From Bacteroidota bacterium (GTDB lineage: Bacteria; Bacteroidota; Bacteroidia; Flavobacteriales_D; Crocinitomicaceae): DNA of 64,000 bases. The notes under the pieces were generated by a model. The model saw only the letters and a program-made list of their open reading frames with translations. It was not told the DNA's origin and made no database searches. The translations under genes and the position numbers were made by a program. The stretch is from NCBI GenBank assembly GCA_006226425.1, contig SBGX01000029.1, forward strand, positions 1 through 64,000. The letters are read 5' to 3'. This document shows, piece by piece, positions 43,197 through 57,745 of this stretch (the stretch's first letter is position 1; every line of letters starts with the position of its first letter).

Positions 43197-43997
43197 TTAT
43201 TTTTTCGGATAGTATTCGTAGAAATCCTTTTTCGGGAAAATGGTGCACTTCCCATTGACGGTCGCATCAATAATTCGTCGCCCGTTTTTTTTGTAGTGAT
43301 CCCGAGCAATGGCGTATCCAATCTCAGACTTATCCAAATCTGGAAGTTTCCACTTCATTCCTTTCGGGAAATAATTCGGGTCGAAGTGACTTTCATCTTT
43401 TTCGTAGGTTCTCACCTCAATTTTATTGGCCACTCCCTTCTCCTTAAAACTATGGTCCATCCCAATGATGATGACTTCTTCAAAGCCCAGATGGTAAGCT
43501 AGTTGTAAACAGGCGAAGGTGACGGTTCCTCCAAAATGAGTGGGTTGGGTCAAATCTTCCTGAAAGAAAGGATTGAAAGCAAATGATTCTTTCAGGTAAT
43601 GACATTGATCGATTCGCTTATGGAGTCTCCAGTTGACAAATTTATCTTCCAGGGGTAAGTTGTTAAAATCATCGGCAAACTGCCCCAGCACCAGGTCTTC
43701 TACGCAAACAAAGTAATTTGGAATGAATCCGATTTTCTCAAAATAAATGTAGAAACGGTTCATACACATCGTGAATTCGTCTTTCAGTACAGATAGGTCC
43801 ATGTCTTTGATGCTCGGACCGTTGGCAATCAAAAACAAACGTTCCCCGCGATGGCGATCTTTGATGCTTCGAAGGTATTCCTGATTTTTTTTGCCTGCTT
43901 CGGAGTTATTCCAAAGCGCCAGGAAGCGACGTTCGATCAACCTTCGTTTGATGGCCGGGATGACCCGGGTGGGATGGAATCGTTTGATATCTACCAT
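43197..43997 (-). CDS. DUF115/MptE-like protein (copy 1)
   Basis: A 266-residue protein with the GNGPS-type nucleotide-binding loop (RLFLIANGPSIKDMDLSVLK, about 53-72) of the DUF115/MAF_flag10 and GT42-like group, and late motifs GTVTFACLQLAYHLGFEEVI (about 168-187), IGMDHSFKEKG and WKLPDLDKSEIGYA. DUF115 proteins include archaeal MptE and flagellar Maf proteins; the group also resembles CMP-sialic-acid transferases of GT42. It has a clear paralogue at 46273-47079. Inside a polysaccharide operon with a CMP-sugar-type gene it may be a glycosyltransferase, but this is inference. Its stop is followed 8 bases later by wecG. Confidence 0.7.
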   Translation of the reverse strand: MVDIKRFHPTRVIPAIKRRLIERRFLALWNNSEAGKKNQEYLRSIKDRHRGERLFLIANGPSIKDMDLSVLKDEFTMCMNRFYIYFEKIGFIPNYFVCVEDLVLGQFADDFNNLPLEDKFVNWRLHKRIDQCHYLKESFAFNPFFQEDLTQPTHFGGTVTFACLQLAYHLGFEEVIIIGMDHSFKEKGVANKIEVRTYEKDESHFDPNYFPKGMKWKLPDLDKSEIGYAIARDHYKKNGRRIIDATVNGKCTIFPKKDFYEYYPKK

Positions 43998-43999
43998 TT

Positions 44000-45295
44000 C
44001 TAATTTGTCTTTATGAGTTCTTCATCCGTTTCGTCCAATGCCAGTACAAACAAAAATAGGCTCAACATGAGTGGCATGGCATTTAGGTAGTAAAAACTGA
44101 TGAAGGATTCTGTTATTGAGATTAAAATGATGTACAAAAATAAGGCATAAAAAGTTAATGCATGACGTTTGTTCAGGTTCCAGATTTTTCTCAATTTCCC
44201 AGCGATCTGACCAAAAATGATCAAGATGACCGAAAGCCCCAGGTATCCAATGTCAAAGATCATGGACAGGATGGAGTTGTGAGGGTGTACATTGTCGGAT
44301 ACATTGTAAGAAATAAACAGAAAGGCCCATTTCAAACTAGCACCGGAGCTAACATGTCCCTCAAATCCATGCCCGATCAAGTGGAACAACTTGAAGTTCA
44401 TGAATTCCTGAAAAGCGAAAATCCAGATAAAAACCCGCCCGTTTAGTGTAAACAGGTCGGTGGAATTTCTTGAGAACTGTGCAAAGAACTCCACTTCTGC
44501 AAGTAAAGGAAGGACAAAAGCCGTAAAGAGTGGGATAACGACAAAGAGGATCGGACTAATAGTAAGCACCCAGCGAAAATTGAGCATTCTGGTTCCGACA
44601 CAGGCACTCAGGATGAGTATGGGATACAAAACAGCACTACGGGAGTCAGTTAATAGGATACTGATGATGATGACCAGAAAGAGAACAATATTGAAACCGG
44701 TCCACTTTTTCTGAAATACATTGTCAATAAGGACGAAGGAGAGTACTGCACCCAGAATAACGGCATAACCGTTGATCCCAATACTAAAGAGGAAGTTGAC
44801 CCGCTCCACCGAGTATCCCAGGGCTTGCAAAATAACGGCATTACCGATAAAAATTTCTCCTTCGGATCGGGCCTGAGAAGTGATCCCCAACAACCAAAAC
44901 AGGTAGTTGATCCCAATATAAAAAACAAAAGGATTGATGATATAATTCCGAAAGCCGTCAATGAACTTGAGGCGATTGTCAATGCAGTGGTTCAGGATTT
45001 CGGAGATATAGACCAGCAAAAAGAGGGAAAAACAGCTAAAATTCAAGAGTCTGATCCAGGAAAATTCGTAGGCCCGAAGCAAACTCATAAAAATGAGGAA
45101 CATGTAGAGCAGTACAAAAATGACTCTCTTTCGGGTGTTTCCCTGAAATAGCCTGAAATTTCCGGAAGCTGCCCCAATGATAAAAAGCAAGAGAAACAGA
45201 AAAGCAAAGACGAAATTAAGCAGCGGTATTCCAACCGTATTGGGGAGATTTAAGAGCCCCAAAAAGAAAAATATGGAATAGAGATTAATGTTCAT
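44000..45295 (-). CDS. O-antigen polymerase/ligase-like membrane protein (Wzy)
   Basis: A 431-residue polytopic protein with about ten to twelve hydrophobic segments and the Wzy_C/O-antigen-ligase loop: LIGHGFEGHVSSGASLKWAF followed by DNVHPHNSILSMIFDIGYLG (about 330-350), with the histidine-rich HPHNS motif typical of this family. Wzy polymerises repeat units at the periplasmic face. It is flanked by the Wzx gene two genes upstream and the DUF115 copy 1, which starts two bases after its stop. Confidence 0.85.
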   Translation of the reverse strand: MNINLYSIFFFLGLLNLPNTVGIPLLNFVFAFLFLLLFIIGAASGNFRLFQGNTRKRVIFVLLYMFLIFMSLLRAYEFSWIRLLNFSCFSLFLLVYISEILNHCIDNRLKFIDGFRNYIINPFVFYIGINYLFWLLGITSQARSEGEIFIGNAVILQALGYSVERVNFLFSIGINGYAVILGAVLSFVLIDNVFQKKWTGFNIVLFLVIIISILLTDSRSAVLYPILILSACVGTRMLNFRWVLTISPILFVVIPLFTAFVLPLLAEVEFFAQFSRNSTDLFTLNGRVFIWIFAFQEFMNFKLFHLIGHGFEGHVSSGASLKWAFLFISYNVSDNVHPHNSILSMIFDIGYLGLSVILIIFGQIAGKLRKIWNLNKRHALTFYALFLYIILISITESFISFYYLNAMPLMLSLFLFVLALDETDEELIKTN

Positions 45296-45302
45296 GATCT
45301 GC

Positions 45303-46280
45303 CTAGAGCTTCATCAGGATGGCCTTGAACTCTTCCGAGTCATCATAGGGCTCTGCGGCATTTGTTCCGTCGTTAAAGTCGAGGCCTTCCAGCGTTAAGT
45401 CTTCCAGTTTTTCAACTGGGATCAACTTGCTATAATGTTTAAAGTACCTACTAAGATACGTATTGTCCCGAACAATGATGTGCTTATTCAGTTGAAGTGC
45501 TCTTCCGAAAAATCCAGATGGACGTTCATTGGTGTAAAAACAGTAGATGATCTTGCTGTTCTTCATTAGGTAGAACAATTCGTTATTCGTTACATAGCGA
45601 CGAATACTATGGACGTTCTCCATTTGCATGAGTTCATCATAATCTCCCTGTTGCATCAGGCCCGACATCAGGAAGTTATACTCATGGTGTTTTCTGATGT
45701 AATTCAAGAACTCGGTACGAGAGCGTTTTTCATCAAACTCTCCGGCAAAAAGGACTGCATTCTCAATTCCAAAAGGTGCTTCCTTCAATTCTTCTGGAAT
45801 TTCTTCTTCAAAGTTGAGCAAAGCCAAATCCCACAATTGAATATCGTAGATGAAACCGTAAACGAATTTGGACATGAAGGCCTGTTCTTCTGTGTTTTTG
45901 TGGATGGAATAGACGCGTGTGGAAGAAAGATTCTTAACACTCCAAAAAAGAATGCGTTTGAATAAGCCCTTAACATATACGACTTTTCCTCGTTTCGTAA
46001 AAAACGTAACGAATGTTCGATGATTACAAAGGTATTCTGTTCGTACACTCAAGGCAATGGCCTTGGCTCCCCAAAGACTCCGGAGAATCATGAATGGGGC
46101 CAGCATCAAGTCCCTGGAGTCAATGTCCATGAACACGATTGATTTCTTACTAAACAGGATCTTTAGCTTTTGGCCAAAAGATTTGATGTTTTCAGCTTTC
46201 CGTATTTTGTTGACCAGTCTGTAGTAGTCATCGTGATGGCAGACGCGGTTGGCGGAAAAGCAATATAATGTCTTATCCAT
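45303..46280 (-). CDS. Putative GT-B type glycosyltransferase
   Basis: A 325-residue protein without a clear family motif. It has an N-terminal Rossmann-like half (IVFMDIDSRDLMLAPFMILR) and a C-terminal half with GENAVLFAGEFDEKR-like strand spacing (FGIENAVLFAGEFDEKRSR), FLMSGLMQQGDYDEL, then LMKNSKIIYCFYTNERPSG and GRALQLNKHIIVRDN, which resembles the nucleotide-binding end of GT-B glycosyltransferases. No E-x7-E motif is certain. Its position between the DUF115 copies and Wzy suits a repeat-unit transferase. Its ATG overlaps the DUF115 copy 2 stop by eight bases. Confidence 0.55.
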   Translation of the reverse strand: MDKTLYCFSANRVCHHDDYYRLVNKIRKAENIKSFGQKLKILFSKKSIVFMDIDSRDLMLAPFMILRSLWGAKAIALSVRTEYLCNHRTFVTFFTKRGKVVYVKGLFKRILFWSVKNLSSTRVYSIHKNTEEQAFMSKFVYGFIYDIQLWDLALLNFEEEIPEELKEAPFGIENAVLFAGEFDEKRSRTEFLNYIRKHHEYNFLMSGLMQQGDYDELMQMENVHSIRRYVTNNELFYLMKNSKIIYCFYTNERPSGFFGRALQLNKHIIVRDNTYLSRYFKHYSKLIPVEKLEDLTLEGLDFNDGTNAAEPYDDSEEFKAILMKL

Positions 46281-47079
46281 TTAAAAAGTCATTCAGTTGA
46301 ATTCGTTCGTAAATTTCAAGTTTTCCTCCTTCGGTGGCATTGTAGATTTTTCTTCCGTGAGCTTTGTAAAACTCATCTGCCATTTTATAATGGATTTCCG
46401 ATCCAAGTAGATCAGGCAATTGCCATTCGGCACCTCCACTAAAATAGTCTTTGGAAAAGTGATTCGGATCAGTTTCACCCGACTTGACCTTCATGTTCGG
46501 AGATCCTTTGGTGACAAAGTTGTGATCACAACCCACAAGCGCTACTTCAGAGAATCCCAGGTGGAAGGCAATCTGCATGGCGGCATAAGTTACCGTATAT
46601 CCCTGGCAAACAGCTCCTCTGATATCTCCGGCAAATTTTAGCTGGAAAGGAAGGGAGTAGATGAAATTAACGTTAGGTCGTTTATTTAGGTGGTGTGCAG
46701 AGGCACTGTCCAAAATCAACTCAATATCTGTCTGATTATAGAAATCTTTATTCTGCTCGATCACCAGTTTGTTGATTGCGACGATCATACTTGGACGAAA
46801 TTCTGTCCGATCGAACAAAAGGTTGATCTTGTTCAGGCCGATCGTGAAAACTCCCTTTTCCTTCAGCAATTCAAAATCAACATTGTTCAAACTTGGTCCG
46901 TTACACAGGATCACTGCTTTTTTTCCGTGTTGTGAATTTCCCAAATCCGTAAAGCGTTTTTTACTCTGTCTGGCTTTTGAACTCAAATCCCATTTCAAAC
47001 GATTTTTGACAAAACCGAGAGACATGCGGTAAATGCCTAACTTCAACTGGGGATTTAACTGTTTGATATAGTTATCCAT
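46273..47079 (-). CDS. DUF115/MptE-like protein (copy 2)
   Basis: A 268-residue paralogue of the gene at 43197-43997. It shares the AVILCNGPSLNNVDFELLK loop (about 54-72), GYTVTYAAMQIAFHLGFSEV, VGCDHNFVTKG, HFSKDYFSGGAEWQLPDLLG and the end GRKIYNATEGGKLEI. The two copies are aligned over their whole length, differing mostly in the middle third. See copy 1 for the functional options. The ATG at 47079 lies 13 bases after the Wzx stop. Confidence 0.7.
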   Translation of the reverse strand: MDNYIKQLNPQLKLGIYRMSLGFVKNRLKWDLSSKARQSKKRFTDLGNSQHGKKAVILCNGPSLNNVDFELLKEKGVFTIGLNKINLLFDRTEFRPSMIVAINKLVIEQNKDFYNQTDIELILDSASAHHLNKRPNVNFIYSLPFQLKFAGDIRGAVCQGYTVTYAAMQIAFHLGFSEVALVGCDHNFVTKGSPNMKVKSGETDPNHFSKDYFSGGAEWQLPDLLGSEIHYKMADEFYKAHGRKIYNATEGGKLEIYERIQLNDFLNG

Positions 47080-47092
47080 AACGCTCTATTGT

Positions 47093-48523
47093 TTATCCGA
47101 AAAAAAGTGCAAATATAGCATAAATCAAGAAAACGAGCATGACTGGCAGCGAGGTCTTTTTCTCGAATTGAAAGAATGTCATGTTCACAAACTTCAGGGA
47201 GTGACTCGTGGAATACCAACTATAAAAGAAGAGGTAACCAACTAACATTCCGAGAGGAATAGCATAGAGTTCGATGTACGGGAAAAGGAAGAAGGCGACC
47301 AGGGCAAAAATAACCGCATTGATCGTATCCGCGATGTGTGAAATGATATCGTTTGATGTTTGGTAAATTTGAACGTGCATAGCTCCATAGCGATGTGCAT
47401 AAAAGGCAAAGGCCATCATTAACCAAAGAAGCGTTGAAACCGGTTTTACGTCACTGTCAATGTATTCGAGGAAAGGTCCGAAACACAATCCGGCCATGAT
47501 CACGGAGAATACAAAGAAGATGTGGCTTTTGCGCATACCGTCCTGAGCGAGTTCGATAAGACGCTTTTGATTTCCTTCCGCATTCAGTTTGGCCAGGATC
47601 GGAATTTTACTGTAAAAGGGTGCGTTGGCTACGTTCTTGATTTCATTCAAAATACGCATGGTTACCATGTAAGAGGCCGCCGAAGCATGGCTTCCCACTT
47701 GCGCATAAAGGATTCCAGTTAAGTTCGTAAGCCCAGTGGCCACCAGCCCTGAAACACCTGATCTCCATGCCGGTTTCCAAATCTCTTTCAAAAAGGCCTT
47801 GTCCAGGGGATGATTTTTGATCGTTCTCAGTTTCTTCTCCCGAATATTTCGGGCGAGAATATAGTTTCGAGTTACGGTTGCGACATATCCGGCACTCACG
47901 ACAATGGTCAATCCAAAGATGGATGGTGAAATCATGAGTACTCCGAAGAAACCGAAAATGACAAACAATTTGAAAATGGCTTCAACCCTTTTGACAAGTG
48001 CCACTTCATTTAATCCTTCCAGATAGTTGTAGTACGTTTTCCCATAAAAGTCGAGGCTGGTAGCCACAGAAAGTACGATCCAACTAGTCCAGAGAGAGTC
48101 GGCATGTTCGTAACCTCTCAAGAGTTCCTTTAAACCAAAATACCCTCCGATTAACATTCCGATGAGGACCAGGAAAGACAGGGTGATGTATATTTTGGTC
48201 ATGTGGGAATATAGTTTTCCGATCAGTTCCCAATTGGTTTTTCCGTCGGTCTTTTCACCGTTCTTAATGACTCCGATGGTTTTTGCACCTCCATTGGCAA
48301 AGGAGAAGAAGCGAACAAAGGCATTTCGGAAGCCCAGATCTGCCAAACCACTCATGGATAAGATCGCGACAAAGGCGTACCAAATCACAATTTCCTGCTC
48401 GTTAAAGCGGGTCAGAATCAGTGGGGTGACCAACACCAGACTGGCCGACTTCGTACCATAACTCATCCAGGTCATGATAGTCGGCGAATTCCAGATGCGA
48501 TGTAATGTGGCCTTAACGTTCAT
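47093..48523 (-). CDS. Polysaccharide repeat-unit flippase (Wzx-like)
   Basis: A 476-residue MOP-superfamily exporter with about twelve to fourteen membrane helices, starting MNVKATLHRIWNSPTIMTWM and showing SKNPF-type bundle spacing. Wzx flips the lipid-linked oligosaccharide to the periplasmic face. Typical patterns: LADLGFRNAFVRFFSFANGG (about 57-76) and KPAWRSGVSGLVATGLTNLT (about 250-270). Its start overlaps the stop of the glycosidase-like gene by 11 bases, a sign of coupling. Confidence 0.85.
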   Translation of the reverse strand: MNVKATLHRIWNSPTIMTWMSYGTKSASLVLVTPLILTRFNEQEIVIWYAFVAILSMSGLADLGFRNAFVRFFSFANGGAKTIGVIKNGEKTDGKTNWELIGKLYSHMTKIYITLSFLVLIGMLIGGYFGLKELLRGYEHADSLWTSWIVLSVATSLDFYGKTYYNYLEGLNEVALVKRVEAIFKLFVIFGFFGVLMISPSIFGLTIVVSAGYVATVTRNYILARNIREKKLRTIKNHPLDKAFLKEIWKPAWRSGVSGLVATGLTNLTGILYAQVGSHASAASYMVTMRILNEIKNVANAPFYSKIPILAKLNAEGNQKRLIELAQDGMRKSHIFFVFSVIMAGLCFGPFLEYIDSDVKPVSTLLWLMMAFAFYAHRYGAMHVQIYQTSNDIISHIADTINAVIFALVAFFLFPYIELYAIPLGMLVGYLFFYSWYSTSHSLKFVNMTFFQFEKKTSLPVMLVFLIYAIFALFFG

Positions 48524-49559
48524 GTTTCAGTTGCTCAAATTTTTGATAATCGATGTAGAATCTATTGGTGCTTCCTTTGACATAAACATCCCATGGAATG
48601 AGGACGTCCCGTTTGTGTTCCATGCCGTATTTCATCAGGATGCGGTGATACTTTTCTTGTTGGGAATTACTTCCGAAAAGTTGCGTCTTCCCCAGGCTGT
48701 CTGCCGTATGATAAAGTTCGTTCAATTTTTTCTCTTCGATCAAATGTTCATTCAGTTCGGCAATTCCGCCATCAAACACCTGATGGTGTTCCTTCCATTG
48801 ACCATTGTAATTGTTGGTCAAAAATTTGGCCTTTGGGAATTCCTTGAGCAATGTTTGTTTCCAGTTTGCTAAAAAATCAATTACTGCTCGTTCCTGAAAG
48901 GCTTCGTAACTCTTACGAAATTCCAACAAATAGGTTTCTGTCTTCTCTGGATTTGCTTTCAGTACTTTTTTAGCCAGCGTCATAATGCCATCTTCTGAGT
49001 CTGAAAATGATGAGTCAAAACGAAGAAAGTCACTGATACAATGGTGGCAAAAACAACCGATTCCTTGATCTAATTTGAGTCGGATATTGAAATCCGGGTC
49101 ATCAACCATGATACCATAGGCTCCTTTGCGCAGTAATTCTTTTCCCCGGTTCAGGAAAGTGCTCTGGAAATCTGGATTGTTCACACAACCCCAGTAGGGT
49201 GTTTTGATCTTCCATTTTCGCATCCAGGGGGCTACATAAAGCTCCTGTTCAAGTGTGCGCATCCTCCCTTTTTGGGTGGTGTATTCAGCCGAGTCAGGAA
49301 CCATGGGGTTCATGGTCAGGCTGTATGGAATTCCGCGTTTTCGATAAAGTTCCAGGACTTTGTCATCAGTGGTGTAAGTCCAGTCAATGCGTTTGGGATG
49401 GAATTTTTCAATGGCCTCCACGGTACTGACTTTATCCTGTGAATGCCGGGGATGAAACCACCTTGAACTAAGGACAAAACCAGCCTCTTCCTGGGCAAAA
49501 CTCCAGGACAGGAGGATATAAATTCCTGCAAAAAGGGAACTGACGACGCGGGGAACCAT
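48513..49559 (-). CDS. Secreted glycosidase-like protein (family not identified)
   Basis: A 348-residue protein with a signal peptide (VVSSLFAGIYILLSWSFAQ). The mature part has features of TIM-barrel glycoside-hydrolase-like proteins: RIDWTYTTDDKVLELYRKRG with repeated strand-helix spacing, an acidic IMVDDPDFNIRLKLD (about 160-175, candidate catalytic acidic residues), and a CFCHHC cysteine/histidine patch that recalls metal-binding sites in beta-galactosidase-type enzymes. I cannot assign a family. A secreted enzyme inside a wzx/wzy operon suggests trimming or length control of the polysaccharide, which is inference. Confidence 0.55.
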   Translation of the reverse strand: MVPRVVSSLFAGIYILLSWSFAQEEAGFVLSSRWFHPRHSQDKVSTVEAIEKFHPKRIDWTYTTDDKVLELYRKRGIPYSLTMNPMVPDSAEYTTQKGRMRTLEQELYVAPWMRKWKIKTPYWGCVNNPDFQSTFLNRGKELLRKGAYGIMVDDPDFNIRLKLDQGIGCFCHHCISDFLRFDSSFSDSEDGIMTLAKKVLKANPEKTETYLLEFRKSYEAFQERAVIDFLANWKQTLLKEFPKAKFLTNNYNGQWKEHHQVFDGGIAELNEHLIEEKKLNELYHTADSLGKTQLFGSNSQQEKYHRILMKYGMEHKRDVLIPWDVYVKGSTNRFYIDYQKFEQLKHER

Positions 49560-49564
49560 GCGAC

Positions 49565-50506
49565 TTATCGGCCTAAAAGTTCCAATAAGTTTTTGACGGC
49601 GAACAATCCCTGACGCTGTACGCTTTCGTATGTTCTGGAACCAATATGTGGGGTGATCAGTACGTTTTCCCGATCTTTTAGCGGGTAGTTTTCAGGCATC
49701 GGCTCGATATCGAGTACATCTGCCAGGTACCCTCCGATGATTTCACGATCCATTCCATCATTCAGGGCCTTCAAATCAACCAATTTTCCCCGGGCAGTGT
49801 TCACCAGAATCACTCCTTTTTTCAAGTGATTTTCTACCAGATTCGTGTTAATCAGATCTTCTGTTTCAGGGGTGTGTGGCACGTGCAGGGTGATGATGTC
49901 TGCCTGTTTGGCAAGATCTTCCATGCTGTCCACCGTTTGGATATAATCGTTTTCACGGATGAAGTCAGCGCTAACAAATTTGTCGAATGCCACTACATTT
50001 AAGCCAAAGCCATGGGCTCTTTTGGCCACTTCCTTTCCAATGGCACCCAAACCAACAATTCCCATGGTTTTGCCGTGAATTTCTGTGCTGACGTGTCTTT
50101 TCCAGCCTCCGGCACGGGTAATGTTGTATTCCAGGTGAATATTCTTCACGAAGCTTAAAATCAGGGCGAAAACGTGCTCTGCCACTGATACTTGATTGAC
50201 TCCAGGACAATTAGTCACCGGGATTTCCAGTGCCCTGGCTGCTTCCAGGTCAATTTTATCCAGCCCAACTCCGTATTTAGAGATATATTTCAGCTTCCCT
50301 GCCTTTCCAATTTTTAGGATTTCCTCTGTGTATTCATCATCTCCGCAAATCACGGCGTCGTAATTGGCAATCACAGGTCTTAGTTCGTCATCTGTTAAGG
50401 GACCACGCATGCGGTCAATTTCAAATCCCTGTTCATTCAACAGTTCCTGATGTGCACCCGGTGCGTCTTGAAAAGAGGTAGATGTCAATAAAAGTTTGAT
50501 GCTCAT
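49565..50506 (-). CDS. D-2-hydroxyacid dehydrogenase (SerA-like)
   Basis: A 313-residue NAD-dependent D-isomer-specific 2-hydroxyacid dehydrogenase. The NAD motif is GIVGLGAIGKEVAKRAHGFG (about 147-166), the substrate-binding arginine lies in LVNTARGKLVDLKAL (about 228), and the catalytic His is in LITPHIGSRTYESV. Family members include phosphoglycerate and glyoxylate reductases. In this operon it could reduce or oxidise a 2-keto/2-hydroxy sugar acid. Starts two bases after the HAD gene stop. Confidence 0.85.
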   Translation of the reverse strand: MSIKLLLTSTSFQDAPGAHQELLNEQGFEIDRMRGPLTDDELRPVIANYDAVICGDDEYTEEILKIGKAGKLKYISKYGVGLDKIDLEAARALEIPVTNCPGVNQVSVAEHVFALILSFVKNIHLEYNITRAGGWKRHVSTEIHGKTMGIVGLGAIGKEVAKRAHGFGLNVVAFDKFVSADFIRENDYIQTVDSMEDLAKQADIITLHVPHTPETEDLINTNLVENHLKKGVILVNTARGKLVDLKALNDGMDREIIGGYLADVLDIEPMPENYPLKDRENVLITPHIGSRTYESVQRQGLFAVKNLLELLGR

Positions 50507-50508
50507 AA

Positions 50509-51153
50509 TTACATTTTTTGAAGTACTTCTTCCAATTGGCTCATGTCTTGAATTCGGGGTCCGTCAAAATCTTCGAAGAGTACTTTGTTATCTTCTGTTT
50601 CTCTTAATATGTAATGCAACTTGGAGTGCTGAGCTGCTTCATAGTCAGCCAGAGCATCCCCAATAAAAACGGTTTCTTCTCTGTTGAGTCCTTCCTGTCC
50701 GATGATGTGTTCCGTCCAGTGTGGTTTCTTATTCGGTGATCCGAATGCTTCTTTGAAGTATCCCGCCCAATTCCGTCGTTCAAGAATGATTTTGATTTCG
50801 TCGGTTGGTGTTCCGGTGATGATCCAGCAATTGTATTTGGAAGAATCGTTTCGGAGGAATTCTTCAGCTCCTTTGACTTCATCTGCCTCCACAACACCTT
50901 TCAGTACGAGATCCGAAAATTTATTCGCCCATTCCTGAACACCTTGTTCGTCCAGCTCTTCGTTCAACCAGTTTTTGTGGTAGAGCTTCACCTTTTCGAA
51001 GCGACTAACTCCTCCGTTTGCAAGGTGATGGGCCACGACTTTGTCCGATATCTCTTTTCCAAATGGAAGGTATAATTGTCGGAAAGCTTCTGTTTTAACA
51101 TTGACCGATTCGGCCAGTACTCCATCAAAGTCGAAAAATATATTTTTAATCAT
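50509..51153 (-). CDS. HAD-superfamily phosphatase
   Basis: A 214-residue HAD hydrolase of the phosphoglycolate-phosphatase-like class. Motif I is FDFDGVLAESVNVKTEAFRQ (Asp nucleophile, about residues 7-9), motif II Thr in CWIITGTPTDEIK (about 109), and motif III/IV VFIGDALADYEAAQ (Asp-Ala-Asp). The cap is helical. In the ulosonic-acid-like module it could remove a phosphate from a sugar-acid phosphate. It starts nine bases after the lactonase stop. Confidence 0.85.
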   Translation of the reverse strand: MIKNIFFDFDGVLAESVNVKTEAFRQLYLPFGKEISDKVVAHHLANGGVSRFEKVKLYHKNWLNEELDEQGVQEWANKFSDLVLKGVVEADEVKGAEEFLRNDSSKYNCWIITGTPTDEIKIILERRNWAGYFKEAFGSPNKKPHWTEHIIGQEGLNREETVFIGDALADYEAAQHSKLHYILRETEDNKVLFEDFDGPRIQDMSQLEEVLQKM

Positions 51154-51162
51154 GATAGTCTG

Positions 51163-51861
51163 TTAATTGTAGTAAATCCAGGTTTTAGGAGAAAGCCCCT
51201 CCAAAGCTGTTTCAATTGGATATTCCGTCGGTTTTTCCAGGATTTCCTGCATGATTTTCACTTTGTTTGGTCCATTCAACAAAATAAAACACTCTGTCGC
51301 CTGTTGTAACACCGGAAAACTTAAGGTCATCCGACTGGTGTTCAGGGAAGGGATTTGATTGATAAATGCCGATTGGTCTTTGACCTCCAGTCCTTTTGAT
51401 CCGGGGAAAAGGGAAGCGGTATGACCATCTTCACCCATTCCAAGTAATACCAAATCAAAAACAGGAATGTTCCCTTCATGTGGAACCTGCTGGAGTTTTT
51501 GTCGGTAGTTGTCAAGTGATGCTTCACCTCCCAACTCGTCATCATACATTTGATGGAAGTTTGCCGGCAGTTTCTGAAGATATTTCATGGCATTCCCGAA
51601 ATTACTTTCGGAGGAATCAGTTGGAACCATTCGTTCGTCTACCCAGAAGAAATGCACGTTTTTCCAGTCTTCATCCTGCAAATATGCTTCTTCAATCAGG
51701 GCTTCAAAAAGTACTTTGGGGGTATTTCCTCCCGAAATGGCCAGGAAACAACTTCCTTTTTCTTCCAATGCTTCTTCAATGCTGGCACTGATCATAGCAC
51801 AAGAGAGACTGATCCATTCTTCTTTCCCTGACGCAGCTATGAAATTTCCGAGGTTTCTCAA
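51163..51861 (-). CDS. 6-phosphogluconolactonase-type (Pgl/NagB fold) enzyme
   Basis: A protein of about 232 residues with the Pgl/DevB motifs: CFLAISGGNTPKVLFEALIE, VHFFWVDERMVPTDSSESNF, VLLGMGEDGHTASLFPGSKG (catalytic Glu/His). The TTG at 51861, two bases after the upstream stop, is my choice; a GTG at 51900 would overlap the upstream gene by 37 bases. Pgl hydrolyses 6-phosphogluconolactone in the pentose phosphate pathway, where it usually lies with zwf and gnd. Here it is alone among sugar-acid genes, so another lactone substrate is possible. Confidence 0.85.
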   Translation of the reverse strand: MRNLGNFIAASGKEEWISLSCAMISASIEEALEEKGSCFLAISGGNTPKVLFEALIEEAYLQDEDWKNVHFFWVDERMVPTDSSESNFGNAMKYLQKLPANFHQMYDDELGGEASLDNYRQKLQQVPHEGNIPVFDLVLLGMGEDGHTASLFPGSKGLEVKDQSAFINQIPSLNTSRMTLSFPVLQQATECFILLNGPNKVKIMQEILEKPTEYPIETALEGLSPKTWIYYN

Positions 51862-51863
51862 AC

Positions 51864-52748
51864 CTATTTGTCTTTTTTGTTGTAAACCGCCTTGATACAC
51901 TCCAAAAGTCCCTGTCCCATATCGATGTGTGGGTTAGCAACCATTTTTTTACTCAATGTCGGAGAGTAGGAGTAAGGGGTAAAGTGGTAGTGGTTATTGT
52001 AGTGATTGTTTTGATAAGTGATCTCCAATTTGTTCCCCAGAATCTCATTGATCACATTGAACAATTCGGATCGTTTCATTTTCTCAATACCGGTAAAAAT
52101 GACGTGCTCATTAATGTAGTTGTCGTTTTCAAGAACATCCACAGAAAGTTTTGCCGCGTCGGAAGCATGGATATACTCCCGGATCTCATTTCCGTCTCCA
52201 CCATGTTCGATTTTTCCCGTTTTGATTGCCTTCTCAATCAGGTTGTAGATATAATTATTGTCGTATTCCATTTCTGAATAAACAGAACCGTATCTCAAAA
52301 TGGTAAAATTCAAATCATACTTGACCGCGTATTCCTCCACAATCTTTTCCGAGGTGAGCTTACTGATTCCATAAAAGGAACCTTTGTCACTCATCGCATA
52401 GGCGCTACTGGCATAAATGAATCGTTTGACTTTGGATTTTACACAGGCATTCAGAATATTGATGTTCCCGAGTACGTTCAATTCCATGGTCCGATACGGA
52501 TCCAGTACTGCTTTATCGAGATTCGCAAACCCTGCCAGGTTGTAGATATAATCGAAAGCACCCTCTGAAATTTGTTTGGCGATCAAATCTCTGTCCGAGA
52601 TGTCCGTTTTCTCGAAGCGCATCGCTTCATGCTGAAACCCAGGTTCATTCAGGTCAAAAACACTTACCTGAAATCCACGCCGAAGCAATTCTTTGCTCAG
52701 GTACAATCCCAAAAATCCACTTCCACCAAAGACTGCTACTTTCATCAT
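51864..52748 (-). CDS. NAD-dependent epimerase/dehydratase (nucleotide-sugar type SDR)
   Basis: A 294-residue extended SDR with Rossmann motif VFGGSGFLGLYLSKELL (about 6-22), the N-A-G motif YNLAGFANLDKAV, the serine in IYASSAYAMSDKGSF (about 115-129), and catalytic Tyr/Lys in YGISKLTSEKI. Later SVYSEMEYDNNYIYNLI aligns with epimerase substrate-binding segments. The substrate is unknown, probably a nucleotide-activated or free sugar. Its start overlaps the last base of the aldolase stop (TAATG), so translation is coupled. Confidence 0.82.
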   Translation of the reverse strand: MMKVAVFGGSGFLGLYLSKELLRRGFQVSVFDLNEPGFQHEAMRFEKTDISDRDLIAKQISEGAFDYIYNLAGFANLDKAVLDPYRTMELNVLGNINILNACVKSKVKRFIYASSAYAMSDKGSFYGISKLTSEKIVEEYAVKYDLNFTILRYGSVYSEMEYDNNYIYNLIEKAIKTGKIEHGGDGNEIREYIHASDAAKLSVDVLENDNYINEHVIFTGIEKMKRSELFNVINEILGNKLEITYQNNHYNNHYHFTPYSYSPTLSKKMVANPHIDMGQGLLECIKAVYNKKDK

Positions 52749-53533
52749 TATTTAATGGCTTTTTTCAACAATTCCATTTCATCCCGGGCTTTATCACCAA
52801 GGAAGAAGAAGTCAATACTCATAGCCAACAAGCTATATCCCACATTGATTTTTTCCAATGTTTTGACATGGTCTGAATGAATCACATGGAAACCGAGTGG
52901 CTTTTTCATGCGCAAGGTTGTTTCTTCCACTTTTTTCAGGGCCTCAACCACATCTGGGTGCTCATAATTTCCGGGCATTCCCATAGAAGCTGAAAGGTCG
53001 TAAGGACCTACCATGATTCCATCTACTCCCTCCACACTCAAAATTTCTTCGATATTGTGAACGGAGTCAATGTGTTCGATTTGAACGATCATGACACATT
53101 CGTCTCTCAACCAATCCTGATATTCCTGAAACCCGATCCCGTAATTTTGGGCCCGGTTCAGTCCAACACCACGTTTTCCTGTAGGAGGATATTTGACAAA
53201 GTCCACGGCCTGTTTTGCCTCTGCTGCATTTCGAACAGTAGGAACAATGATTCCGTCGGCACCTGCATCGAGCATTCGCTTGATGATGACTTCTTCATTT
53301 TTACTCACCCGGGCGAGGGCTTTCATCCCTTTTCCCTGAATGAGTGCCATCATGTTCATGGCCTGAGAAATGTCTATGGCCGCGTGCTCCAGGTCCAGTG
53401 TCAACCATTCGAAGCCGGCAGTGGCCATGATCTCAACGACCGATTGATGCGGAATTGTCAACCACGAACCAATGGTCAGTTCATTCGCTTGTAACTTTTT
53501 CTTTAGAGACCAATCTGGTGTTATCGTTTTCAA
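52748..53533 (-). CDS. HpcH/HpaI-family class II pyruvate aldolase (TTG start)
   Basis: A 261-residue aldolase of the HpaI/GarL family, which reversibly joins pyruvate to an aldehyde to give a 2-keto-3-deoxy (hydroxy) acid. Motifs: GFEWLTLDLEHAAIDISQ (catalytic His about residue 50), LDAGADGIIVPTVRNA (about 93-108), metal-binding EHIDSVHNIEEIL (Glu about 152) and DGIMVGPYDLSASMGMPG (Asp about 178). It starts at TTG (53531-53533); no ATG upstream keeps the family N-terminus. It lies within the cytidylyltransferase cluster, where it could make an ulosonic acid. Confidence 0.85.
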   Translation of the reverse strand: MKTITPDWSLKKKLQANELTIGSWLTIPHQSVVEIMATAGFEWLTLDLEHAAIDISQAMNMMALIQGKGMKALARVSKNEEVIIKRMLDAGADGIIVPTVRNAAEAKQAVDFVKYPPTGKRGVGLNRAQNYGIGFQEYQDWLRDECVMIVQIEHIDSVHNIEEILSVEGVDGIMVGPYDLSASMGMPGNYEHPDVVEALKKVEETTLRMKKPLGFHVIHSDHVKTLEKINVGYSLLAMSIDFFFLGDKARDEMELLKKAIK

Positions 53534-53545
53534 TACAGTATGGTT

Positions 53546-54361
53546 TTAGTTCAATTCTTTCAGTGCAAATTTTTCAAATGCAGGATCTTTATAGGCGATC
53601 AGGTTCCCCCATGCTTTAGGATCCAGGTCACATGGATAGACATGTGCCCCTCTGAACTTGTGGTTTCCTCCGTATTTAACGATAGGTTCCCACTCACATA
53701 CCAATACTTTGTATCCGAACGACTGAAGATAATCGATCATGTCTTTCACGGTGTAACCCATTTTTTGAGTTTTACCGTCTTCGTATTCACAAATGATCAT
53801 TTCTACCGAATCGTATTTTTTCAGGTCAATTCCTTGCAATACGAAAAGGTCGAATCCTTCGGCATCGATTTTCAGGAATTTGATTGGTTTGATGTTGTGT
53901 TCCTCGATCACATTGTTCAGGGTGTCTACCTTAACCACGTGTGATACTTCGTGCGTATCGTGGAAGTTCAACAAACTGGAAATTCCAGTAGACTCTTCGG
54001 AAACGTAGAAGTTTAATTCCCCCGGTTTTTCCGCCACAGCAAAATCGAACAAGGTGAAATTCTCATTGCTTGGAATATTCTTCATTACGATCTCATGATT
54101 GCTCTTATCTGGCTCAAAACCAAATACTTTCCATCCGTTTTCGAGGAAAGGAATACTCGATTCTCCGTAGTGAACACCTACATCGACCATGATACCGGTA
54201 CTTTTGGTTCTACGATAAAATTCGATGATCAGGAACAGTTCATCCACGCGTCCCATCATCTTTTTCTTCAATCTGAAGAACATTTGAGGACCGATTAATT
54301 TTTTGAATGTCCGAGATCCAACGATGTATCTGACGAATTTGCTATTTAACAATGTTTTCAT
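53546..54361 (-). CDS. FkbM family methyltransferase
   Basis: A 271-residue S-adenosylmethionine-dependent methyltransferase of the FkbM family; in polysaccharide loci these usually methylate sugar hydroxyls. SAM-binding motif GIMVDVGVHYGESSIPFLEN (about 57-76), then FGFEPDKSNHEIV, and the post-motif FLKIDAEGFDLFVLQGID (about 167-184). The TTG at 54367 would add two residues; the ATG at 54361 is preferred. It lies between the YhcH-like gene and the aldolase. Confidence 0.85.
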   Translation of the reverse strand: MKTLLNSKFVRYIVGSRTFKKLIGPQMFFRLKKKMMGRVDELFLIIEFYRRTKSTGIMVDVGVHYGESSIPFLENGWKVFGFEPDKSNHEIVMKNIPSNENFTLFDFAVAEKPGELNFYVSEESTGISSLLNFHDTHEVSHVVKVDTLNNVIEEHNIKPIKFLKIDAEGFDLFVLQGIDLKKYDSVEMIICEYEDGKTQKMGYTVKDMIDYLQSFGYKVLVCEWEPIVKYGGNHKFRGAHVYPCDLDPKAWGNLIAYKDPAFEKFALKELN

Positions 54362-54400
54362 AATCAATTTATTGTTTCTGTTGGTATTTAGTACCTGCTC

Positions 54401-54865
54401 TTATCGAAACAGGTCGATGTTAACTTTAATTACTATTTTCTTAAGGTGCTCTGGTCCGTTCCCAATCTGAAATTGCGGATGATGCGGATCTTCCGGAAAG
54501 AATACCGCCATGTACTCCGGCTTCAGAATCAGCTCACAGTAAGGGTCGTTGTTTACGTCATAGAATTCGCAATCACTTTCCTCGTCGTATGGCTTTTTGG
54601 TTTTGACATCTTCGGTTCCGTACATCTTGATCAACTCGTGTCCGGCCAGTAGAATTTGAATATCTACTTCCTTACGGTGCGTTTCAATGATATCAGCTTC
54701 CTCTTTTGTGTCGTATTCCATGACCTTGAAGTAGAAACCTTTGTCGTCATAACGATAGATACCATTTGCCGTATTCTGGTTGTAATCTTTCAGTGTTTGA
54801 AAAACTTCTTCAAAGACAGGTCCCTTGAAATAAGTGCGCCAATTGTCTATTCTATCGTAGATCAT
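54401..54865 (-). CDS. YhcH/YjgK/YiaL cupin protein (NanQ-like)
   Basis: A 154-residue DUF386 beta-barrel protein. Members include E. coli YhcH/NanQ, linked to sialic acid anomers, and YiaL. Motifs: NGIYRYDDKGFYFKVMEYDT (about 35-54), EVDIQILLAGHELIKMYGTE (about 67-86), and metal-binding EYMAVFFPEDPHHPQFQIGN with histidines (about 117-136). Its start overlaps the cytidylyltransferase stop by 14 bases, which ties the two functionally. A role in handling the anomer of a keto sugar acid is an inference. Confidence 0.85.
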   Translation of the reverse strand: MIYDRIDNWRTYFKGPVFEEVFQTLKDYNQNTANGIYRYDDKGFYFKVMEYDTKEEADIIETHRKEVDIQILLAGHELIKMYGTEDVKTKKPYDEESDCEFYDVNNDPYCELILKPEYMAVFFPEDPHHPQFQIGNGPEHLKKIVIKVNIDLFR

Positions 54866-55535
54866 GTCTTACTTTATAAAGGGTTTCCGCCAGAATGAAA
54901 TCTTCCGGCTCGTCAATATCCTGTGCTTCGATCTTATTCATTGGAAACATCATGGGGTTCATTCCAATTCGTTTGTTTCCGGCTTTTTCAAAAGAATCTT
55001 TTGTAAAAATGAAAAAGTTCGAGTTTTCTTCGAAAACGGGAGGTAAGTCCTGCGTTCTAATCAGTTCTTCCGGATTGTGATTCACCGGTTTCCCATCTTC
55101 CCAGTATAGTCGTGTTTGCATCCGAGTTACCGAAAAGACTGAGTCGTACTGATCTCCGGCATCCAAAAATGCTTTGATCGCGTTATCCAGAGTTTCCACT
55201 TTGAGTAGTGGATTGGTGCTGTGCGTTTGGATGTAAATATCTGCATTCACCTGACTCATATCATAGGCAATGACATCGTTCATAGGCACGAAGTCACCAC
55301 AGATTTCTTGCGGACGATCGACGATGATCACGGAAGGGAAGTTTGCATTGGCATCTTCCTTGATCTTTTCACTATCCGTATTGATCACGATGTCGGTGAT
55401 GTATTTCGACTTTAGCAGTTCTGAAATAATGGCATGATACAGCGGTTTCCCGTCAAAAGATCTTAGGTTTTTATTCGGAACTCTTTCCGAATTCCCTTTC
55501 ATGGGAACCATGATCGCTATTTTTTTACCACTCAT
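54852..55535 (-). CDS. Acylneuraminate-type cytidylyltransferase
   Basis: A 227-residue nucleotidyltransferase of the CMP-NeuAc/KDO synthetase family, which activates keto-sugar acids as CMP-sugars. Motifs: the CTP-binding KGNSERVPNKNLRSFDGKPL (about 14-33), ITDIVINTDSEKI (about 47-59), IYIQTHSTNPLLK (about 94-106) and a C-terminal EAQDIDEPEDFILAE that matches the D-I-D-x-P-x-D end of NeuA. Full length for a single-domain form. The operon has no NeuB- or KdsA-like synthase; an HpaI-type aldolase is present instead. Confidence 0.85.
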   Translation of the reverse strand: MSGKKIAIMVPMKGNSERVPNKNLRSFDGKPLYHAIISELLKSKYITDIVINTDSEKIKEDANANFPSVIIVDRPQEICGDFVPMNDVIAYDMSQVNADIYIQTHSTNPLLKVETLDNAIKAFLDAGDQYDSVFSVTRMQTRLYWEDGKPVNHNPEELIRTQDLPPVFEENSNFFIFTKDSFEKAGNKRIGMNPMMFPMNKIEAQDIDEPEDFILAETLYKVRHDLR

Positions 55536-55543
55536 GATGCTCT

Positions 55544-56611
55544 TTAAGAATTGATTTTTACATTCACCTCAGAGAGGTACCATTCGTACATCTTACGTAC
55601 TCCTTCTTGCAGCTCAATTTTGTGTTTCCACCCCAGTGAGTTGAGTTTTGAAACATCTGTCAATTTGCGCATCGTTCCATCCGGTTTGGAAGTATTAAAG
55701 ACCAGGTCACCATCATATCCAACCGTTTCTTTGATCATTTCGGCCAGTTCCCCGATCGAAATATCCACTCCGGTTCCGATGTTAATGTGCGTATTTCTGA
55801 TTTCCGGATTCGAACTGTCATACGTATCCTTAAAATCACGTTGTTCCATGATAAAGACGCAGGCATCAGCCATATCTTCGGACCACAGGAATTCTCTTTT
55901 TGGTTTCCCTGACCCCCAAATTTCCACACTGGAAGAGGAGACGTTAAATCGTTTCAAGAATTCAGTAGCTTCTTCCATGGACGTCATTTTAAGATCATCT
56001 AGGACTTCATCATTCTTTCCTTCTTTCAGAAGTTTTGCCAAATGTATTTTTCGGATCAATGCCGGCAATACATGTGATTTCTCCAGGTCAAAGTTATCGT
56101 TTGGTCCGTAGAGGTTTGTTGGCATGACTGAGATGAAATTGGTCCCATACTGAAGGTTGTAACTTTCACACAATTTGATCCCGGCAATTTTAGCGATTGC
56201 GTATGGTTCATTCGTGTATTCCAACTCATCTGTCAGTAAATAGGTCTCTTTCAGCGGTTGTGGGGCGTTCTTCGGGTAAATACAAGTACTTCCCAGGAAC
56301 AGCAATTTCTTGACACCGTGTACATAACTTTGATGTACCACATTGTTCTGAATCATCAGGTTATCATAAATGAATTCAGCCCGATAGGTGTTATTGGCTA
56401 CAATTCCTCCCACTTTGGCCGCTGCCAGAAAAACATATTCTGGTTTTTCCTGCGCGAAAAAGGCTTCCACGGCTGTCGGGTCACACAGATTCACTTCTGC
56501 GTGGGTCCGATAGACAATGTTCGTGTACCCTTTGGCTTGCAGGTTTTTCAGGATTGCACTTCCTACCAGTCCACGATGACCTGCAATGTATATTTTGGCG
56601 TCTTTTTTCAT
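55544..56611 (-). CDS. fcl: GDP-L-fucose synthase
   Basis: Epimerase-reductase that turns GDP-4-keto-6-deoxymannose into GDP-L-fucose. The 355-residue product has the Rossmann motif [18 protein letters not shown] (about 8-25), [17 protein letters not shown] (Ser about 107), [12 protein letters not shown] (Tyr/Lys about 137/141) and [13 protein letters not shown]. It carries an extra segment of about 35-40 residues (about 190-230, [20 protein letters not shown]) compared with the roughly 320-residue E. coli enzyme. Downstream of gmd by 18 bases. Confidence 0.95.
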
Positions 56612-56629
56612 GTATGGTTGCTGTTCAGA

Positions 56630-57745
56630 TTATTCGAACTGGTTCGTAATGACGTAACCACCATCTTTCAAATAGACTCCTTTTTTCATCAGTTTCAGGT
56701 CGCTGGACATCATATCGCTAACCAGTTCTTCCAAACTATATTCAGGAACCCATCCTAACTTCTCTTTTGCCTTGGTTGCATCTCCAATCAACAGGTCAAC
56801 TTCTGTCGGACGGAAATAACGCTTATCAACGGCAAGAATCTCTTTTCCGATCTCTATTTGGTAATCAGGGTTGTTACAAGCTTTGACGTAAGCTTTTTCA
56901 TTTTCTCCTTCTCCTCTGAAATCCAACTCAATTCCTACTTCGTTGAAAGCCATTCTTACGAAATCACGTACTGGAGTTGTTTTTCCTGTTGCGATCACCC
57001 AATCTTCTGGCTCATCTGCCTGAAGAATCATCCACATCATACGAACGTAATCTTTGGCATGTCCCCAGTCACGTTGTGCATCCAGGTTCCCCAGGTAAAA
57101 TTTATCTTGCAATCCCAATGCAATTTTAGCAACTGCACGAGTAATTTTTCGAGTTACGAAAGTTTCCCCACGAATCGGAGACTCATGGTTAAACAGAATT
57201 CCGTTACAAGCAAACATACCGTATGCTTCCCGGTAGTTCACGGTGATCCAGTAGGCATACATTTTGGCGACGGCGTATGGACTACGTGGATAAAATGGAG
57301 TCGTTTCCGATTGTGGAACTGCCTGCACCAAACCATAAAGTTCAGAGGTGGAAGCCTGATAGATTTTTGTTTTCTTTTCCAATCCCAGGATTCGAAGTGC
57401 TTCCAAAAGACGCAACGTTCCGATTCCGTCCGCATTTGCAGTGTACTCGGGAGTTTCAAAAGAAACTTTTACATGGCTCATAGCCGCCAGGTTGTAGATT
57501 TCATCTGGTTGTACTTCCTGGATAATTCGGATCAGGTTCGTACTATCTGTCATATCTCCATAGTGCAGAATGAAGTTTTGATTGTCGATGTGCGGATCCT
57601 GATACAGGTGATCAATACGCTCCGTATTAAAAAGTGAAGCTCTTCGCTTGACTCCGTGAACGATGTATCCTTTCTTCAGAAGAAATTCACTCAAATAGGC
57701 TCCATCCTGACCTGTTACACCAGTAATTAATGCTACTTTACTCAT
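56630..57745 (-). CDS. gmd: GDP-mannose 4,6-dehydratase
   Basis: Gmd makes GDP-4-keto-6-deoxymannose, feeding fcl. The 371-residue product has [20 protein letters not shown] (residues 5-24), [20 protein letters not shown] (about 85-104), [20 protein letters not shown] (catalytic Thr/Ser and Glu, about 130-149), and [15 protein letters not shown] (Tyr/Lys). It lies between wzz and fcl; together they give GDP-fucose for the polysaccharide. Confidence 0.97.

Follow-up and report, generated by a model that had tools for sequence, protein, structure and literature searches.

A candidate aldolase-based route to a CMP-activated ulosonic acid in a Crocinitomicaceae polysaccharide locus

A run of eight genes encoding, among others, an HpcH/HpaI-type pyruvate aldolase (HpaI below) and a cytidylyltransferase was identified on the minus strand (55535-49565) of a 64,000-nucleotide stretch from a Bacteroidota bacterium of the family Crocinitomicaceae (assembly GCA_006226425.1, contig SBGX01000029.1, positions 1 to 64,000; hereafter the window). 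The locus very probably makes some ulosonic acid activated with cytidine monophosphate (CMP), and the best single reading, which we hold to be probable on balance, is a route independent of NeuB in which the aldolase joins the carbon chains. To our knowledge, the known CMP-ulosonate pathways start with a synthase dependent on phosphoenolpyruvate (PEP).

Gene cluster and its two central enzymes

The first gene of the run encoded a PseF-like cytidylyltransferase of the CMP-P subfamily (54852..55535; CTP_transf_3, E=9.6e-29), which would activate a keto acid with cytidine triphosphate (CTP). It was followed by a YhcH/YjgK/YiaL family protein (54401..54865; DUF386, PF04074, TIGR00022), which might open or close the ring of the keto acid, and by an FkbM methyltransferase (53546..54367; Methyltransf_21, PF05050, TIGR01444), probably for an optional decoration. 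The class II aldolase, with a TTG start (52748..53533; PF03328, E=9.4e-36), would form the C-C bond. Downstream were an extended short-chain dehydrogenase/reductase (SDR) of 294 aa resembling sugar-nucleotide epimerases (51864..52748; Epimerase, PF01370), a 6-phosphogluconolactonase-like protein (Pgl, 51163..51900; Glucosamine_iso in Pfam, TIGR01198), a HAD phosphatase with a proposed KdsC-like role in dephosphorylation (50509..51153; HAD_2, PF13419), and a D-2-hydroxyacid dehydrogenase (DHDH, 49565..50506; 2-Hacid_dh, PF02826). All eight proteins scored above the Pfam cut-offs of their families, in agreement with a preliminary description made from the sequence, which had named the same eight consecutive genes. 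From the cytidylyltransferase downward the junctions were an overlap of 14, gaps of 33 and 12, overlaps of 1 and 37, and gaps of 9 and 2 bases; the overlaps of 14 bases (cytidylyltransferase and YhcH) and 1 base (aldolase and SDR) had been given correctly in that description. Since the gene group recurs in other genomes, the grouping is not a matter of chance.

The aldolase was placed in the HpcH/HpaI class II pyruvate aldolases by its family profile and its catalytic His, Arg, Gln, Glu and Asp. Positions D47, E49, H50, R75, Q151 and E153 were kept in 81 of 81 aligned proteins and D179 in 80 of them; we take these to correspond to the residues for catalysis and metal binding in HpaI and GarL, which agrees with the alignments made here. 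Scores were below the cut-offs of all four NCBIfam equivalogs matched (HpaI, two glucarate-aldolase models and RhmA: 187.3 of 368.8, 184.5 of 393, 176.7 of 406.75 and 141.8 of 441 bits), and the protein is a member of the family and no named orthologue of HpaI, GarL or RhmA. It was the only clear HpcH/HpaI gene of its genome in a PF03328 search, with one marginal match (27.3 bits, cut-off 25) in part of a 497-residue frame on contig C24.

The cytidylyltransferase was a CTP_transf_3 protein, with PF02348 above cut-off and near-invariant positions conserved over 62 proteins, and shared 44-81% identity with six aligned relatives. It reached 99.3 of the 205.7 bits required by the PseF model of NCBIfam, and at most 41.4 bits with the five KdsB models matched, whose cut-offs are 155-281. 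The family given in the preliminary description, an acylneuraminate-type cytidylyltransferase, could thus be kept, while no named orthologue can be given. In a sister locus, one KDO-type (3-deoxy-D-manno-octulosonate) cytidylyltransferase passed two KDO-cytidylyltransferase subfamily models (315.5 of 255 and 272.5 of 193 bits), which for the one member tested fits a 3-deoxy-ulosonate product. Three CTP_transf_3 genes existed in the genome of the window, one on contig C25 (179.9 bits), which is presumably the housekeeping KdsB, one on contig C29, and the one in the window.

No NeuB-like open reading frame (ORF) was seen in the ORF lists of the window, which bears out the NeuB part of the earlier statement that neither a NeuB nor a KdsA synthase is seen there. 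The only strong NeuB match of the genome (308 bits) was on contig C29, about 3 kb from the second cytidylyltransferase. In this region (L019, 9503-16026), PseI, PseG, PseF, PseC and PseB were all above their equivalog cut-offs (PseF 281.9 bits). The region also encodes a Pse-associated methylase and a formyltransferase-like protein, and no PseH could be identified. The region appears, from these model matches, to be a pseudaminic-acid-type pathway with its own CMP-synthetase, separate from the cluster of the window, and the missing PseH leaves our estimate unchanged because PseI and PseF sit in one cluster. A second NeuB match in the genome (24 bits) fell inside a DAHP_synth_1 gene (231 bits), and two genes of the UDP-GlcNAc-epimerase family were located on other contigs. 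A NeuB-type synthase encoded elsewhere with the same co-occurrence pattern, which the preliminary description had named as evidence against its model, was not found: the one true NeuB of the genome is a PseI beside its own PseF.

Recurrence of the aldolase-cytidylyltransferase pair

An aldolase alignment was used to scan genome contigs; of the 88 relatives, the 80 best were analysed, a choice made by aldolase sequence and not by neighbours. Records of culturable carriers such as Flavobacterium akiainvivens, Maribacter flavus and Winogradskyella tangerina were among the scan results. By record titles, sorted by hand and liable to err for metagenome-assembled genomes, the 80 loci belonged to Bacteroidota (38), Campylobacterota (26), Deferribacterota (5), Gammaproteobacteria (3), Desulfobacterota (2), Balneolota (2), Planctomycetota (1) and Ignavibacteriota (1), with two unplaced. 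Clustering revealed a cytidylyltransferase near HpaI in 77 of them, PseF-like only in 57, KDO-type only in 16 and both in 4. One more locus (L065), in which a KDO-type gene begins right after HpaI and runs off the contig, brings the count to 78 of 80; in L103 the stretch begins at the aldolase and no cytidylyltransferase is visible. The distance was short, less than 100 bases from HpaI for 18 of the 20 KDO-type enzymes and within 3 kb for 57 of the 61 PseF-like ones. The search for this neighbourhood in other genomes, which had been proposed earlier, therefore revealed a strongly conserved pair.

The other genes were less regular. DHDH was present in 65 of the 80 loci, SDR in 56 (47 of which have both DHDH and HAD), HAD in 49, a cyclase-family hydrolase in 36, YhcH in 35, DUF115 in 22 and Pgl in 18. 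Pgl and the cyclase-family hydrolase never occurred together, with 18 loci having only the former, 36 only the latter and 26 neither. This exclusiveness (Fisher p 4.6e-5, 49 long loci) was considered as a sign of repeated replacement and set aside, since the aldolase tree contains only two switches and the p value reflects lineage. Between the window and 15 type-A loci (defined below) of Campylobacterota, Desulfobacterota and Deferribacterota, the median identities were 57% for HpaI (15 proteins), 61% for the cytidylyltransferase (14) and 57% for SDR (14), and 35% for HAD (13), 31% for DHDH (15) and 32% for YhcH (7).

Three layouts were observed. In type A, the cytidylyltransferase is followed by HpaI, SDR, a lactonase or cyclase, HAD and DHDH, or DHDH comes before SDR. 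In a layout rich in Campylobacterota, the gene next after HpaI encodes a KDO-type enzyme, and DHDH, SDR, cyclase and HAD usually come behind it. Three loci with HpaI and a KDO-type enzyme (L061, L063 and L069) showed no DHDH, core-type SDR, cyclase-family hydrolase or HAD in the available stretch, with a distant SDR-like epimerase present, so the HpaI-cytidylyltransferase pair looks minimal. The third layout (13 loci, among them ones from Mucilaginibacter and Dyadobacter) combines a Gfo/Idh/MocA oxidoreductase with one or both of a GmhA-like SIS protein and a putative sugar phosphate cyclase related to AroB; most of these loci also encode a classical SDR, 10 of the 13 YhcH and 11 DHDH. The AroB-related cyclase of one member scored above the TIGR04425 cut-off, and an inositol-monophosphatase-like gene is present in a few of these loci. 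Examples beside cytidylyltransferase and HpaI are L086 (3824-10800), L072, L083, L089 and L091. Loci of the AroB-like variant might yield an acid that is carbocyclic or has a long chain.

A fewest-changes count on a quick aldolase tree gave 7 switches of cytidylyltransferase type, 2 of lactonase type and 3 of layout. The count of 7 is a soft number, with 34 of the 79 inner branches poorly supported, and the counts leave out rows without a state (2, 26 and 12 for the three characters) as well as L159 (Acuticoccus), whose branch is implausibly long and whose position was not used. Since the types of cytidylyltransferase and lactonase and the layout all switch on the tree, the constant element is the pair of HpaI and a cytidylyltransferase.

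Among 240 genomes of the family of the window, the cytidylyltransferase was matched at E 1e-20 in 13, and in 7 of these at E 5.5e-58 or better. The aldolase at E 1e-40 or better was found in 6 genomes, all among the 7 with the best cytidylyltransferase matches (Fisher value 2.8e-11, which ignores relatedness). The order cytidylyltransferase, aldolase, SDR, HAD and DHDH was kept in G102, G105 and G118, and in G104 and G116 as far as the contigs reach. Meanwhile FkbM, YhcH and Pgl were variable: L022 lacks FkbM and Pgl, L024 lacks all three, and FkbM is absent between its neighbours in L022 and L023. Beside DHDH in L024 and L109, which are from a sister genus, an FkbH-like gene and a large membrane protein (both by eye) replace the usual polysaccharide genes.

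On plasmid records, an HpaI homologue at E 1e-40 was found 28 times. No window-type cytidylyltransferase at E 1e-20 was present on the 27 records whose homologue has 34-39% identity, and the single one at 43.5%, from the alphaproteobacterium Acuticoccus, is adjoined by a cytidylyltransferase, a 'phosphoglycerate dehydrogenase' and a HAD gene. Two matches in staphylococcal phage records had 29% identity over 69% of the length of HpaI only. In addition, two contigs of a viral collection (IMG/VR; L110, 1-1745, and L111, 3250-10385) carried HpaI with DHDH, and L111 in addition a cytidylyltransferase of the KDO type and, by eye, methyltransferases and two proteins resembling radical-SAM enzymes; these may be phage-borne sugar-acid genes or misassigned contigs.

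Proposed route and alternatives

The proposed route follows a KDO-like logic with a different carbon-joining enzyme, and its product, destined for a surface polysaccharide, would be a 2-keto sugar acid activated with CMP. HpaI would join pyruvate, rather than PEP, to a sugar-derived aldehyde, which is probably phosphorylated, and the HAD enzyme would take off the phosphate. The keto acid would then close to a ring, aided by YhcH where present, and be coupled to CMP by the PseF-like enzyme. Finally, an enzyme of the DUF115 family with a predicted sialyltransferase fold would place the ulosonate in a repeat unit handled by Wzx/Wzy-like genes. The most likely task of SDR, dehydrogenase and lactonase is to make the aldehyde acceptor ready or to modify the acid. 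The gene content, the conserved pair of HpaI and cytidylyltransferase, the intact catalytic residues, the assignment of the genome's NeuB to another pathway and the predicted fold of the candidate transferase are observations, whereas all the reactions, the order of the steps, pyruvate as donor and a 3-deoxy product are what we infer.

The accessory enzymes fit this route unequally. The YhcH of the window was above the cut-off of the general YhcH/YjgK/YiaL model TIGR00022 and reached 94.7 of 160 bits with the sialic acid (N-acetylneuraminate) anomerase equivalog NF040884. According to PMC8141875, YhcH supplies the sialic acid aldolase NanA with the open-ring form of its substrate, which fits an aldolase acting with a cyclising keto acid. 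By this precedent, the earlier pairing of YhcH with an aldolase and an ulosonate holds, while its function would be ring opening and not the setting of the anomer that had been suggested. Pgl passed TIGR01198 (179.8 of 124.45 bits) and by this model is classed as a 6-phosphogluconolactonase. For SDR, the AlphaFold2 model (pLDDT 89.5) was closest to the UDP-glucose 4-epimerase TM0509; the predicted structure resembles sugar-nucleotide epimerases in general and points to no single role. The earlier idea that SDR, dehydrogenase and lactonase adjust the keto acid gained no support here, and lactonase and YhcH are absent from many loci. Of the overall pathway model, the pairing of aldolase and cytidylyltransferase gained support and the roles of these three enzymes did not.

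Several points weigh against the aldolase-based route. The scan query derived from aldolases that have this cytidylyltransferase as a neighbour, so the linkage is shown for this subfamily only, and L082 is a real exception, with no cytidylyltransferase visible in 10 kb upstream and 2 kb downstream of its aldolase. HAD was found in none of the 13 GmhA/AroB-like loci, so that the phosphatase step is not general, and the epimerase-like SDR has no obvious place in a route of three steps. By sequence comparison, HAD, DHDH and YhcH have diverged much more from phylum to phylum than HpaI, the cytidylyltransferase and SDR, which may mean a different substrate or separate recruitment. DHDH is present in most of the loci, yet a plain route of aldol reaction, phosphatase and activation has no need of it, and three genomes that have no HpcH/HpaI match at all (G030, G364 and G435) likewise combine it with this cytidylyltransferase, which the model of the preliminary description leaves unexplained. 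Either the keto acid can also be made by a second route, through oxidation, or DHDH and SDR catalyse a step common to both kinds of cluster other than the one that forms the keto acid. No polymer structure or enzyme assay was found, and no HpaI-type aldolase in a CMP-sugar pathway appeared in the titles and abstract openings of the papers listed by the literature searches, which mostly did not include subscription journals.

Enzymes of the DHDH family (GhrB/TkrA) interconvert aldonates and 2-ketoaldonates. In an oxidative route, SDR would make a lactone from an aldose, the lactonase would open it, DHDH would oxidise C2 and the cytidylyltransferase would activate the 2-ketoaldonate, leaving HpaI to another job such as a side chain, a second sugar or chain extension. 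We consider this rather unlikely for the window. It is favoured by three loci with cytidylyltransferase, DHDH and a classical SDR and no HpaI (L026, 8705-10969; L131, 9661-12009; L134, 842-3235), whose genomes have no PF03328 match; their SDRs scored best with an aldose dehydrogenase model (two) or a glucose 1-dehydrogenase model (one), all below cut-off and with other SDR models close, and L026 has a cyclase as well. On plasmid stretches of Thalassovita and Gemmobacter, in which no HpaI is annotated, the cytidylyltransferase also adjoins a gene of the DHDH family; in Thalassovita this neighbour is a 'phosphoglycerate dehydrogenase', and SDR and SMP-30/gluconolactonase genes lie about 6 kb off. 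However, five DHDHs from loci without HpaI form a supported clade of their own and their SDRs are of another type, so this may be a different pathway, and the three loci named above have HpaI and a KDO-type enzyme without a visible DHDH. Furthermore, of the four cytidylyltransferase-bearing genomes without a PF03328 match, two (G364 and G435) have a true NeuB elsewhere and two (G030 and G276) do not; the cytidylyltransferase copy of G276 is, by eye, outside a polysaccharide setting. In L160 (7037-8643) the cytidylyltransferase stands with a D-2-hydroxyacid dehydrogenase and no HpaI in the stretch. The cluster type of L026, L131, L134 and L160, with a classical SDR and in part a cyclase or a more distant SMP-30 lactonase, is possibly an oxidative route to a CMP-ulosonate in its own right.

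In a hydroxypyruvate variant, DHDH and HAD would make hydroxypyruvate from 3-phosphoglycerate as the donor for HpaI, giving a 2-ulosonic acid that keeps its 3-hydroxyl. The DHDHs do match a phosphoglycerate dehydrogenase model best, though below cut-off (231.7 bits for the window protein with TIGR01327, cut-off 454), and a 'hydroxyketoacid aldolase' is among the relatives of the window HpaI with solved structures. This variant is improbable, since 3-deoxy acids are suggested by the KDO-type cytidylyltransferases of sister loci, HAD is not seen in 17 of the 65 DHDH-bearing loci (including all 11 GmhA/AroB-like ones with DHDH), and the lactonase is left without explanation.

Another reading lets a NeuB encoded elsewhere supply the keto acid, with HpaI only recycling or degrading it, as NanA does with sialic acid. 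A NeuB-family gene is indeed found in the genome of the window and in 5 of the 10 aldolase-bearing genomes searched, and NeuB occurs in the available stretch of 9 of the 80 loci. However, the gene of the window's genome is the PseI with its own PseF, a true NeuB is absent from the other five genomes (G102, G105, G292, G555 and G377, 93-100% complete), and in all 80 loci the 3 kb on either side of HpaI are free of NeuB. Among 14 genomes with the cytidylyltransferase, 7 had a true NeuB (E 1e-60 or better), 4 had weak matches only (24-30 bits) and 3 had none. We regard this reading as very improbable. That the aldolase is a catabolic gene placed in a polysaccharide locus by chance, as the catabolic nature of the named models it matches could suggest, was rejected and is nearly excluded by the recurrence in 78 of 80 loci, the operon-like position and the one-base overlap.

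Neighbouring genes and comparison with known pathways

The neighbouring genes given here with positions were also on the minus strand. A hypothetical protein with a signal-peptide-like start by eye (48513..49559) continued the gene run; it had no match in Pfam or NCBIfam and no credible match in PDB (best E 0.59), and its relatives adjoin the cluster in L031, L033 and L038. Two DUF115/MptE-like proteins (PF01973) are candidate glycosyltransferases for the CMP-ulosonate, one at 46273..47079 with a weak WaaZ match, and the other, which could be aligned with it, at 43197..43997. The AlphaFold2 model of the former (pLDDT 91.1) matched the Maf glycosyltransferase 5mu5 (Z 14.6, root mean square deviation (rmsd) 4.9, 230 aligned) and CstII 1ro8 (Z 12.9, rmsd 3.7, 180 aligned; sequence match weak, E 0.009), and has by prediction a fold like that of Maf and GT42 sialyltransferases. 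Maf and CstII use CMP-ulosonates, and the title of 1ro8 names a CstII structure with a cytidine substrate analogue. The pterin kinase HPPK (8sd5, Z 12.8) was tied with CstII, so the fold alone is no proof of a transferase; this flanking protein could, judged by its predicted structure, transfer the CMP-ulosonate.

The surrounding genes were of a polysaccharide kind. A Wzx-like flippase (47093-48523) and a glycosyltransferase-like gene (45303-46280) were named by eye and had no Pfam match, and a Wzy-like O-antigen polymerase (44000-45295) matched Wzy_C. On the other side of the cluster were an Fcl-like epimerase/reductase, named by eye, and a GDP-mannose 4,6-dehydratase (together 55544..57745; Epimerase and GDP_Man_Dehyd in Pfam), with a polysaccharide export protein (Pfam) and a Wzz-like protein (by eye) among the neighbours further upstream.

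Sialic-acid-like sugars are usually predicted for a microbe from the presence of the gene of a PEP-dependent synthase. If HpaI can replace this synthase, such predictions overlook a class of acidic surface sugars in Bacteroidota, Campylobacterota, Deferribacterota and other groups, and a new aldolase-cytidylyltransferase pair would serve to make unusual CMP-sugars. With low confidence, it is conceivable that two routes to CMP-ulosonates do without NeuB and KdsA: an aldol route through HpaI and an exchangeable cytidylyltransferase, spread over eight phyla by record titles, and an oxidative route through an aldose dehydrogenase, a lactonase, a D-2-hydroxyacid dehydrogenase and the same cytidylyltransferase subfamily, with no aldolase. 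Both would feed many unrecognised acidic sugars, some of which (from the variants with an AroB-like cyclase) are perhaps carbocyclic.

Compared with known systems, the cluster is a variant of CMP-ulosonate biosynthesis and not a new category. With the KDO pathway (KdsD-KdsA-KdsC-KdsB) it would share condensation, a HAD phosphatase and activation by a CTP_transf_3 enzyme, and 20 of the 80 loci have a cytidylyltransferase of the KDO type. KdsA, an enzyme of the DAHP-synthase kind (3-deoxy-D-arabino-heptulosonate 7-phosphate), takes PEP as its substrate, whereas an HpcH/HpaI aldolase would take its place here, with SDR, DHDH and lactonase added and a cytidylyltransferase that misses the KdsB models. 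With the sialic, legionaminic and pseudaminic acid pathways (NeuB/LegI/PseI and NeuA/LegF/PseF), it has in common a NeuA/PseF-like cytidylyltransferase and a transferase candidate of predicted Maf/CstII fold, but it has no linked NeuB-type synthase, its cytidylyltransferase misses the PseF cut-off, and a separate Pse cluster exists in the genome.

The catabolic pyruvate aldolases HpaI, GarL and RhmA have the same family profile and catalytic residues, whereas the aldolase of the window misses the four equivalogs and the 27 plasmid homologues of 34-39% identity have no such cytidylyltransferase on their records. NanA, which acts in sialic acid catabolism, belongs to another aldolase family. NanA with YhcH is nevertheless a parallel, in which a 2-keto sugar acid is the substrate of both an aldolase and an anomerase (PMC8141875); NanA runs toward cleavage, whereas the direction in the cluster would be synthesis.

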